DNA of 35,695 bases from Actinomycetota bacterium. GTDB lineage: Bacteria; Actinomycetota; Actinomycetes; Streptosporangiales; Streptosporangiaceae. Of the stretch, positions 12,526 through 17,077 are shown piece after piece (positions within the stretch are counted from its first letter, which is position 1; each line of letters begins with the position of its first letter). A program made the translations under genes and the position numbers. Below the pieces are notes generated by a model. The model searched no databases. It saw only the letters and a program-made list of their open reading frames with translations, and was not told where the DNA came from. The stretch lies in NCBI GenBank assembly GCA_027314515.1, contig DAHVAR010000214.1:1-35695 (forward strand). The letters run 5' to 3'.

Positions 12526-12734
12526 CCGGTCATCGTGGCACAAGCTACCTGAATAGCGCGCCGCGATGGCATCCGGCACTGCGCAACGCTCGCATCGCAG
12601 GCATGGCCTGACAGGGGATCACGACCCCTGTATTCGCTCCATCTCGGCCGTTCGTGTTACAGTCCCGGTGGACAACATGCGACCGAGCCCCAGGTCAGCC
12701 GGGGTTCGGCGGTTACTTACCTAACTGAATATTG

Positions 12735-12918
12735 CTCATCCAGAGGGGTGGAGGGAACGGCCCGATGAAGCCCCGGCAACCATCACGTTGAAGTGCGCCT
12801 GACGTAGCCAGACTTACTGGCGCGGCGCACTGAACGACGCAGCGCAGCGAAGGCGGCGAGGCCGTCACGTGACTGGTGCCAACTCCGGCCCGCGGCACAA
12901 GCCGCCGGGACAGATGAG
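12735..12918 (+). promoter_or_regulatory. SAM-I (S-box) riboswitch with an enlarged P3 arm
   Basis: P1 is formed by CTCATC (12735-12740) and GATGAG (12913-12918), exact complements. The core follows the S-box consensus: AGAGGGGTGGAGGGAACGGC, then CCGATGAAGCCCCGGCAACC, and GGTGCCAACTCC starting P4. P3 is unusually long. TCACGT (12783-12788) pairs with ACGTGA (12867-12872), enclosing two further helices: AGTGCGCC/GGCGCACT (12792-12799 with 12824-12831) and GACG/CGTC (12836-12839 with 12863-12866). The 3' P1 strand runs into the ribosome site of the following GTG (GAGGAGAGAGG), and no terminator separates them. SAM binding would therefore stabilise P1 and block translation; that mechanism is inference. 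A leader hairpin sits upstream (12683-12709). Confidence 0.92.
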
Positions 12919-12934
12919 GAGAGAGGCCTCGCCA

Positions 12935-14275
12935 GTGAGTTCCACGCTGACCAATCAAGCAAGTTCATCGGCTGCGCCTGCGGCCCCGACCGCAGCCGCA
13001 TCGCCGGATGCCACCCCGTCCAGGTTCGGGTTCGCCACCCATCTCGCCTGCCGCGAATGCGGGCACACCCGCACTCTCGGTTCGACTCACGCGTGTGACC
13101 AGTGCTTCGGGCCGCTTGAGGTGGCTTACGACCTGCCGCCTCTCACCCGCGCGCGCATCGAGCGCGGCCCGCTGAGCATGTGGCGGTACGCCAGCCTGCT
13201 GCCGGTGCCGCCGGACGTAGCGAGCCGCCCGAACCTCGACCCGGGCTGGACCAGGCTGATCCGCGCGGATCAGCTCGCGCAGGTGCTCGGCATGCGGGAG
13301 CTGTGGATCAAGGATGAACGCGGTAATCCCACGCACTCCTTCAAGGACCGGGTTGTGGGGGTCGCGCTCGCGGCCGCCCTCGAGCTCGGCTTCAAGGTTC
13401 TGGCCTGCCCGTCTACTGGCAACCTGGCCAACGCCGTGGCGGCCGCGGCGGCCCGCGCGGGCATCCGTTCCGTGGTCCTCATCCCGGCCGACCTCGAGCC
13501 GCAAAAGGTCATCGGCTCCGCCGTTTACGGGGGCTCGCTGGTCGCGGTAAAGGGCAGCTACGACGATGTCAACCGGCTCGCGTCCGAACTCGCGGACGAG
13601 CGCGAGGACTGGGCGTTCGTCAACGTGAACGTGCGGCCCTACTACGCCGAGGGCTCCAAGACCATCGGCTTCGAGATTGCCGAGCAACTCGGCTGGCGGT
13701 TGCCGGAGCAGATCGTGGTGCCCGTCGCGTCCGGTGCGCAGCTAGTGAAGATCGACAAGGCATTTCGCGAGCTCATTGCCACCGGCCTGGCCGACCAGGC
13801 TCCCTACCGGGTGTACGGAGCGCAGGCGACGGGCTGCTCGCCGGTCGCCGCGGCGTTCCGGGCCGGGCACGACGTCGTGCAGCCGGTCCGGCCCGCGACC
13901 ATAGCCAAGTCGCTGGCGATCGGGAACCCGGCAGACGGCCCGTATGTGCTCGACGTGGTGCGCCGCACCGGGGGCTGCGTCGCGGATGTCGATGACGGCG
14001 AGCTGGTGGCTGCCATCAAGCTGCTGGCAGCCACCGAGGGCGTGTTCGCCGAAACCGCCGGCGGGGTGACCCTGGCCGTTCTCCAGAAGCTGCTGAAGGA
14101 GGGCCAGATCGACCCGGACGCGCGTACGGTGATCGTCAACTCGGGTGACGGGCTGAAGACACCGGATGCGGTAAGCAGCGCAATCGAGGGGGTATCCGCC
14201 ATCCCGCCGACGCTGGCGGCCTTTGCCGAGCGCGTGCCGGGGCTCGCGGTGAGCGCTGCAAGAAAGGCAGGCTGA
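12935..14275 (+). CDS. thrC: Threonine synthase-family PLP enzyme (ThrC-like; candidate SAM-regulated homocysteine-forming enzyme)
   Basis: A 446-residue fold-type II PLP enzyme. After a low-complexity Ala/Ser/Pro N-terminus comes a zinc-ribbon-like CxxC pair (Cys39, Cys42, Cys54, Cys57). The PLP lysine is in NPTHSFKDR (Lys137), and STGNLANAV (residues 160-168) is the phosphate-binding loop. Later segments match long-form ThrC. That enzyme converts O-phosphohomoserine to threonine. Two contexts do not fit plain threonine synthesis: the SAM-I riboswitch immediately upstream, which normally governs methionine supply, and the sulfur-carrier gene two bases downstream. A homocysteine-forming role with that carrier is therefore possible. 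The GTG at 12935 has GAGAGG eight bases upstream; an in-frame ATG at 12914 lies inside the riboswitch P1. The family is certain; the reaction is not. Confidence 0.88.
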   Translation: MSSTLTNQASSSAAPAAPTAAASPDATPSRFGFATHLACRECGHTRTLGSTHACDQCFGPLEVAYDLPPLTRARIERGPLSMWRYASLLPVPPDVASRPNLDPGWTRLIRADQLAQVLGMRELWIKDERGNPTHSFKDRVVGVALAAALELGFKVLACPSTGNLANAVAAAAARAGIRSVVLIPADLEPQKVIGSAVYGGSLVAVKGSYDDVNRLASELADEREDWAFVNVNVRPYYAEGSKTIGFEIAEQLGWRLPEQIVVPVASGAQLVKIDKAFRELIATGLADQAPYRVYGAQATGCSPVAAAFRAGHDVVQPVRPATIAKSLAIGNPADGPYVLDVVRRTGGCVADVDDGELVAAIKLLAATEGVFAETAGGVTLAVLQKLLKEGQIDPDARTVIVNSGDGLKTPDAVSSAIEGVSAIPPTLAAFAERVPGLAVSAARKAG

Positions 14276-14277
14276 GC

Positions 14278-14553
14278 ATGTCCGTGTCCGTCCGCATCCC
14301 GACGATATTGCGGAGCTACACCGGCGGGACAGCCGTGGTAACCGGCGCGCCGGGCACGGTCCGTGAGCTCATCGCCGGCCTCGATGCCGACTATCCGGGG
14401 ATCGCACGGCGGCTGCTCGACGACACTGGGCAGTTGCGCAGGTTTGTCAACGTCTACGTCGGCGAAGAGGACATCAGGCTGGCGGACGGCCTGGACACGC
14501 CGGTGCCGGCCGGCGGCCAGGTCTCGGTGATTCCCGCAGTGGCAGGGGGCTGA
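14278..14553 (+). CDS. MoaD/ThiS-like sulfur carrier protein
   Basis: A 91-residue beta-grasp protein. It opens SVSVRIPTILRSYTGG and has TVRELIAGLDADYPGIARRL in the helix region, RFVNVYVGEEDIR in the middle, and ends VSVIPAVAGG with the C-terminal Gly-Gly (90-91) that is adenylated and converted to a thiocarboxylate in MoaD, ThiS and CysO. No activating E1-like enzyme or JAMM protease is nearby. The ATG starts two bases after the ThrC-like stop, with AGGCAGG inside the end of that gene, so the pair is translationally coupled. I infer that it delivers sulfide to the PLP enzyme beside it, as CysO does for CysM. A role in molybdopterin or thiamine synthesis cannot be excluded, but no such genes are here. 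Confidence 0.88.
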   Translation: MSVSVRIPTILRSYTGGTAVVTGAPGTVRELIAGLDADYPGIARRLLDDTGQLRRFVNVYVGEEDIRLADGLDTPVPAGGQVSVIPAVAGG

Positions 14554-14847: not shown

Positions 14848-15048
14848 ATGGCTCAGGGCACCGTCAAATGGTTCAACGCGGACAAGGGCTACGGCTTCAT
14901 CGCGGTCGACGGTGGTAGGGACGTCTTCGTTCACTTCTCGGCTATCCAGTCGGATGGTTACCGCACCCTCGAAGAGGGCCAGCGGGTCGAGTTCGACATC
15001 ACGCAGAGCGACCGCGGCCCGCAGGCCGAGGCCGTGCGGGCTGTCTAG
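14848..15048 (+). CDS. CspA-family cold shock protein
   Basis: A 66-residue cold shock domain. RNP1 is KGYGFI (with [15 protein letters not shown]) and RNP2 is DVFVHFSAI; the end is [19 protein letters not shown], as in actinobacterial CspA. These proteins bind single-stranded RNA and DNA and melt secondary structure. Length is standard. GGGAG lies eight bases upstream of the ATG. A long leader with a perfect inverted repeat precedes it and a strong terminator hairpin follows, so it is probably a monocistronic transcript between the ThrC/sulfur-carrier operon and groEL. Confidence 0.95.
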
Positions 15049-15073
15049 TCCGGTAAACAGGACACACCTACCG

Positions 15074-15112
15074 CAAGAGCCCGGCACCCATGGCCTGGGT
15101 GCCGGGCTCTTG
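15074..15112 (+). terminator. Strong hairpin terminator after the cold shock gene
   Basis: AAGAGCCCGGCACCCA (15075-15090) pairs perfectly with TGGGTGCCGGGCTCTT (15096-15111), extended by one more pair, around the loop TGGCC. No T-tract follows, which is common for actinobacterial terminators. It starts 26 bases after the cold shock stop. Confidence 0.85.
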
Positions 15113-15260
15113 GCATGGGCTGGGCGGCATCGTGCCGGCCAGCGCGCCGCGAAGCGGAATGCGATGCTGATCCTCGTCCAGGCGAGCTGCGCGGCGTTAA
15201 TTAGTCGCCGCTGACATTACCTCGCTGACCTGCGTGTATATCGCCCGAAAAGAACTGCGG

Positions 15261-15287
15261 CTTGCACTCTCAGCATGAGAGTGCTAA
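15261..15287 (+). promoter_or_regulatory. CIRCE operator 1 (HrcA site) of groEL
   Basis: CTTGCACTC, nine bases, GAGTGCTAA: close to the CIRCE consensus TTAGCACTC-N9-GAGTGCTAA. It overlaps a possible promoter (TTGCAC at 15262-15267, 17 bases, TAAACA at 15285-15290). HrcA binding here would repress groEL except under heat stress. Confidence 0.92.
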
Positions 15288-15295
15288 ACATGTCG

Positions 15296-15322
15296 TTGGC
15301 ACTCTCGGGGTGAGAGTGACAA
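15296..15322 (+). promoter_or_regulatory. CIRCE operator 2 of groEL
   Basis: TTGGCACTC, nine bases, GAGTGACAA: a second, slightly weaker CIRCE eight bases after the first. Both half-sites keep the GCACTC or GAGTG core. Two copies suggest tight or cooperative HrcA repression. Confidence 0.85.
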
Positions 15323-15376
15323 CGCAGTGACGTGATCGGGGCGATGAGGCCTCCGCTGGCGGCGGGCAGGGACTGA

Positions 15377-17077
<1,701 letters not shown>

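Follow-up and report, generated by a model that had tools for sequence, protein, structure and literature searches.

A SAM riboswitch, a threonine synthase-like enzyme and a sulfur carrier form a probable homocysteine-making operon in a Streptosporangiaceae genome

The window analyzed here is a 35,695-nt stretch of a Streptosporangiaceae genome (assembly GCA_027314515.1, contig DAHVAR010000214.1). It carries a SAM-I riboswitch, a gene for a pyridoxal phosphate (PLP) enzyme of the threonine synthase (ThrC) family and a gene for a small sulfur carrier, in that order and on the same strand. The features are as follows, with positions counted from the first nucleotide of the window.

12733-12920, + strand: SAM-I riboswitch aptamer (RF00162, detected with cmscan), one hairpin of which carries a long insertion
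12733-12740, + strand: P1 5′ strand, TGCTCATC, paired with 12913-12920 in the Rfam alignment
12913-12926, + strand: P1 3′ strand, GATGAGGA (12913-12920), and purine-rich presumed ribosome-binding site, read from the sequence
12935-14275, + strand: MetM-like ThrC-family PLP enzyme, presumed O-phosphohomoserine-dependent homocysteine synthase; GTG start, 446 aa (TIGR00260, PALP)
13049-13105, + strand: putative Cys4 zinc-ribbon-like N-terminal motif (C39, C42, C54, C57), invariant in 12 MetM rows
13343-13345, + strand: presumed PLP lysine, K137 in SFKDR, invariant in both alignments and aligned with the SFKDR of solved threonine synthases
14278-14553, + strand: MetO-like sulfur carrier of the ThiS family (PF02597), 91 aa, ending in AVAGG (GG codons at 14545-14550)

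The RF00162 match has E = 5.6e-14 and a score of 68 bits, above the gathering score of 44.4, and covers model positions 1 to 108 of 108. It is the sole Rfam match at the gathering threshold in the window and the only SAM riboswitch found across the whole 5.86-Mb genome. Between the end of the aptamer and the GTG codon at 12935 lie 14 nt; an alternative GTG at 12869 would extend the frame into the aptamer and is an unlikely start. The riboswitch was located directly upstream of the enzyme gene in all 20 relative loci scanned with Rfam, out of 29 kept from the class search, and the layout of the P1 3′ strand and the purine-rich stretch is similar in the leaders of these 20 relatives. In 21/21 leaders, those of the 20 relatives and of the window, the long frame has its first start codon 9 to 16 nt past the aptamer, too close for a terminator to fit in between, which points to translational control. 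The switch would thus most likely act on translation, with P1 closing over the ribosome site. The free minimum-energy fold of positions 12725 to 12945 has a z-score of -2.08 (4 of 200 shuffled sequences were at least as stable), and in this ligand-free prediction the 5′ strand of P1 pairs with the start-codon region instead.

The enzyme exceeds the cut-off of the TIGR00260 threonine synthase family (269 versus 167 bits), matches Pfam PALP with 235 bits and falls just under the cut-off of the threonine synthase family NF006050 (293 versus 303 bits). It shares 37% identity with the separate ThrC of this genome, 67 to 72% with 11 aligned orthologues, 60 to 71% with the matches listed in class genomes and 62 to 80% with 80 named loci, which are the best 80 of at least 586. 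A metM-like gene that is 71% identical was also found on a record titled Spirochaetaceae bacterium isolate CAN_BIN15, which is probably a misplaced actinobacterial contig. The SFKDR motif and the stretch VNVRPYYAEGSKT, around residues 229 to 243, are invariant in the 12-row MetM alignment, whereas SVNPxRxxGQKT replaces the latter in the genome's own ThrC and in two threonine synthases of solved structure (2zsj and 1uim). In threonine synthase, we take this stretch to help bind phosphate; a literature search on such a role for residues 229 to 243 returned nothing. A site altered in this way is what we would expect of an enzyme with a different second substrate, while being no proof of the reaction.

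The carrier gene starts two bases past the stop codon of the enzyme. The best PDB sequence matches of its product are 3dwg chain C (E = 1e-22), labelled culture filtrate antigen in the PDB listing, and 4n6e chain B (E = 2.5e-19), which we take to be the CysM-CysO complex of Mycobacterium tuberculosis and CysO with a thiosugar synthase, respectively. The protein is 56% identical to the genome's own CysO, and it has the attributes of a CysO-type carrier, namely membership in the ThiS family, a GG tail and an E1-rhodanese partner (ThiF plus rhodanese) encoded in the genome. A cold-shock protein gene and groEL (15455-17077) follow metM-metO at window positions 14848 to 17077, and of the 63 named loci whose sequence continues for at least 2.9 kb past the genes, 34 likewise have a groEL match there. 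The first-pass annotation, prepared from the sequence letters alone, had described a SAM-I riboswitch whose P1 3′ strand reaches into the ribosome site, a PLP enzyme of the threonine synthase family and, two bases further on, a GG-tailed MoaD/ThiS-like protein. All three descriptions agree with the profile matches and coordinates given here, and its remark that streptomycetes have groEL2 beside such genes finds a counterpart in the groEL of the window.

The pairing of enzyme and carrier genes was examined in two sets of relatives. The carrier adjoins the enzyme in 21/30 class loci (the window included) and was not found beside it in the other 9; among the 80 named loci it is beside metM in 64, a count that includes three carriers touching or overlapping the enzyme match, and absent from that position in 16, two of which offer merely 1.0 to 1.2 kb of downstream DNA. 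Nine of these 16 loci are Pseudonocardiaceae by name (Lentzea, 3; Actinokineospora, 2; Pseudonocardia, 2; Saccharothrix, 1; and Crossiella, 1), and these nine are all the Pseudonocardiaceae noticed among the 80 titles. In the 9 class loci without a linked carrier, cold-shock-like frames and, in some, groEL were seen by eye downstream of the enzyme. All 9 of these genomes, which may represent families other than Pseudonocardiaceae, have ThiS-family genes elsewhere, and each encodes a CysO 72 to 77% identical to that of the window's genome, next to cysM. Two of the 9 (G012 and G031) have an extra unlinked carrier that is nearer to MetO (44 to 47% identity) than to CysO (38 to 39%). C termini could be compared for 63 of the 64 linked MetO proteins, since one (L148) is cut by a contig end. 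The sequence ends in GG in 53 and extends beyond GG in 10 (L093, L104, L105, L128, L132, L143, L151, L153, L159 and L161): six end in GGC, one in GGAR, one in GGSR and two are longer. A MetO with residues past GG may need trimming or a different chemistry.

The remaining steps from homoserine to methionine were sought in the rest of the genome, which is 97.9% complete and in 280 contigs. A separate contig (C110) bears hom, thrC and thrB together, all scoring above their cut-offs (PRK06349 homoserine dehydrogenase, 554.5 bits; TIGR00260, 294.9 bits; TIGR00191 homoserine kinase, 193.4 bits). The enzyme at 12935-14275 lies outside this unit, which has its own thrC. The first-pass annotation had proposed looking for another thrC accompanied by hom and thrB, and had named a finding that this enzyme is the only thrC, complementing a threonine auxotroph, as evidence against its proposal; the other thrC exists, and the enzyme as sole thrC is excluded. 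A third ThrC-like gene is split between two contig ends, one of C59 (7141-7955, two frames, one piece of which matches PRK08197 best, with 226 bits) and one of C218 (15207-15425, C-terminal part), and is probably the product of an assembly break or a damaged gene.

The search of this genome for metX returned three weak pieces, the best with 29 bits, and that for metA returned no match; the metX matches listed in relatives score 400 to 449 bits. The formal metX cut-off of 500 bits was passed by none of 296 genomes and by no control, so it does not discriminate in this search. Given the completeness and fragmentation of the assembly, metX could have been missed but probably was not. The first-pass annotation had also proposed checking whether metX/metA and metY/metB are missing from the genome; this holds for the former pair but not for the latter, since PF01053 (metB/metY-type) is represented by two strong genes and nine weaker matches. 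A single metH was found (311.5 bits, in a 1,244-aa frame of which the first 299 residues match methionine synthase models). A MoeZ equivalog is encoded elsewhere in the genome (726.6 bits versus a cut-off of 647), and four ThiS-family matches include CysO next to CysM. The genome's CysO (L025:1492-1785, - strand, contig C77) ends in GGRR, not GG; a JAB-type peptidase gene is located just upstream of the cysO-cysM pair, and its product could trim this tail. A 528-aa ThiF-domain protein (L175:1338-2924, - strand, contig C275) was noted by eye beside a ClpP-like gene; its N-terminal half looks JAB-like, with no Pfam match there, and it seemingly stands outside the methionine pathway. This inventory covers the whole path between homoserine and methionine, provided that the enzyme of the window makes homocysteine.

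To place the operon in a wider context, 296 genomes of the class were searched for the enzyme (E ≤ 1e-60), metX (E ≤ 1e-60) and the SAM riboswitch (E ≤ 0.001), which were found in 191, 188 and 201 genomes, respectively. Co-occurrence was counted per genome, not by position, and the Fisher values ignore shared ancestry and are not to be read as probabilities. Enzyme and riboswitch occur together in 190 genomes, the enzyme alone in 1, the riboswitch alone in 11 (G002, G021, G027, G056, G071, G226, G233, G243, G250, G258 and G274) and neither in 94. The lone enzyme-positive genome without a riboswitch (G007) has a weak enzyme match (2.2e-69), and because a few matches are weak or partial (G007, and G293 near 1e-70), some other type of ThrC-like gene may be among the 191. 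Enzyme and metX are both present in 88 genomes, the enzyme only in 103, metX only in 100 and neither in 5. The enzyme thus occurs in 103 of the 108 genomes that gave no metX match. Within the family to which the window belongs, 31/31 sampled genomes have the enzyme and 9/31 have metX. The class-wide pattern fits an enzyme able to stand in for metX, but the 88 genomes with both indicate that it is not a strict replacement.

Taken together, these results make it very probable that the operon is a SAM-repressed homocysteine-making unit, probably orthologous to MetM-MetO of Streptomyces albulus. The parts and their order, their conservation, the other pathway genes and the lack of a metX or metA match were observed directly; from these we infer what the enzyme catalyzes, where its sulfur comes from, that MoeZ charges the carrier and in which direction the switch works. 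Under this model, MoeZ would adenylate and sulfurate the GG tail of the carrier to yield a thiocarboxylate, while Hom and ThrB would supply O-phosphohomoserine. The ThrC-like PLP enzyme would then exchange the phosphate of O-phosphohomoserine for the sulfur of the carrier (or for sulfide), giving homocysteine that MetH would methylate to methionine. Abundant SAM would bind the leader, P1 would close over the ribosome site and translation would stop. The homocysteine interpretation offered in the first-pass annotation is supported by the separate thrC, by the failure to find metX or metA and by the class-wide metX pattern.

Several other explanations were weighed. The enzyme could simply be a second threonine synthase of the usual kind, placed under a SAM riboswitch by chance. 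Its score above the TIGR00260 cut-off would agree with such a role, as would the threonine synthase and threonine deaminase activity reported for a cyanobacterial homologue in the account of PMC12172450. The complete hom-thrC-thrB operon already present, the replacement of SVNPxRxxGQKT (own ThrC and two solved enzymes) by VNVRPYYAEGSKT in all 12 MetM rows, and the riboswitch and metX pattern, which indicate methionine, make this very improbable. Homocysteine could instead arise mainly by transsulfuration from O-phosphohomoserine via the PF01053 enzymes, as in plants, leaving MetM an accessory role. One of the two strong PF01053 proteins (L015) exceeds the cut-off of the PRK07811 cystathionine gamma-synthase family (630 versus 513 bits), and a second (L016) is at hand, which leaves room for other homocysteine routes. 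However, L015 adjoins a cystathionine beta-synthase (CBS) gene (616.7 bits versus a cut-off of 510.25), a layout that we take to be that of reverse transsulfuration; L016 reaches the cut-off for none of the 25 families shown; and the genome's only SAM riboswitch found is the one at metM. We consider this route improbable as the main source, though less so than a second threonine synthase.

A further alternative concerns the sulfur donor and is a variant of the preferred explanation, compatible with its core: the enzyme would make homocysteine from O-phosphohomoserine with sulfur drawn mainly from free sulfide or CysO, and the linked carrier would be merely helpful or would serve another enzyme. 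The 16 of 80 named loci in which no carrier is beside the enzyme, the cysO-cysM pair in all 9 searched class genomes without a linked carrier and the 56% identity between the carrier and the genome's CysO speak for it. The adjacency of the two genes in 64/80 named loci argues, on the other hand, for a working partnership, and we regard this variant as somewhat doubtful. Since the carrier is not adjacent in 16/80 named and 9/30 class loci, it may not be obligatory, and the cysO-cysM pair in 9/9 class genomes that have no linked carrier points to possible sharing of a carrier. We therefore raise, as a tentative proposal that is more apt to fail than to hold, that in several actinobacterial lineages, Pseudonocardiaceae above all, MetM lost its own carrier and takes sulfur from CysO. 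One carrier would then serve both cysteine and homocysteine synthesis, whereas lineages with MetO would split the two flows, with SAM controlling the methionine branch alone. Lineages without a carrier gene beside metM may be the less explored aspect of this system, and their loci provide a natural comparison for testing carrier sharing. Among the titles and opening lines of abstracts listed in searches of open-licence papers, there was no further paper on the MetM route and none on the use of CysO by MetM.

Returning to the homocysteine-making operon, its distribution offers a possible explanation for methionine synthesis in many actinobacteria without homoserine acetyltransferase. It also illustrates that enzymes of another function can score above the TIGR00260 threonine synthase cut-off; automated annotation may misname MetM and report a false methionine gap.

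The system most similar to that of the window is MetM-MetO. According to PMC12172450, the homocysteine synthase MetM was identified in Streptomyces by Hasebe et al. (2024, AEM 90:e01247-24) and has homologues in cyanobacteria. In the same account, a SAM riboswitch is located upstream of metM, MetM prevents methionine auxotrophy in S. albulus, and a putative sulfur carrier gene adjoining Microcystis thrC has S. albulus metO as its closest match. The first-pass annotation had mentioned possible work on a ThrC-like homocysteine synthase with a carrier partner, which corresponds to MetM and metO of S. albulus. Its caution that the locus would then be one more example of a known system was justified, as the route was published in 2024 and is described in PMC12172450, which rules out a reading as a new system. 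The Microcystis homologue is reported there to be 51.6% identical to MetM and to lack the SAM riboswitch. It has threonine synthase and deaminase activity, forming threonine and 2-oxobutyrate in vitro, and when given O-phosphohomoserine it yielded a peak of unassigned identity near methionine, also when no sulfur source was supplied; the authors doubted that it fully plays the role of MetM in the cell. The Microcystis result counts against a uniform function across the family. As described there, the S. albulus locus shares with the window a ThrC-like enzyme, O-phosphohomoserine as substrate (presumed here), a carrier gene and an upstream SAM riboswitch, and Streptomyces fildesensis has the enzyme (64% identical) and the carrier (57% identical) side by side (L170). 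The window differs in being Streptosporangiaceae-like by its nearest named loci and in the long hairpin insertion of its riboswitch, and it probably holds the Streptosporangiaceae orthologue of MetM-MetO.

The CysM-CysO-Mec-MoeZ route of M. tuberculosis likewise combines a PLP enzyme, a phosphorylated amino acid and a thiocarboxylated GG carrier charged by MoeZ. In the Wolinella succinogenes HcyS route, a carrier thiocarboxylate leads to homocysteine, as proposed for the window; its enzyme is of the MetY type and uses O-acetylhomoserine, unlike that of the window. Sulfuration of CysO by mycobacterial MoeZR is described in PMC3227635. The likeness to the CysM-CysO route extends to the carrier, the best PDB match of which is 3dwg chain C, but the enzyme of the window is of the ThrC type and not the CysK/M type, its substrate is presumed to be O-phosphohomoserine, and its gene is preceded by a SAM riboswitch. 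The genome has, in addition, its own cysO-cysM pair with the JAB-type peptidase gene upstream. With canonical ThrC, finally, the enzyme shares its sequence family, its PLP site and its presumed first substrate, and it is set apart by its separate operon, by the different conserved stretch around residues 229 to 243 and by its zinc-ribbon-like N terminus.
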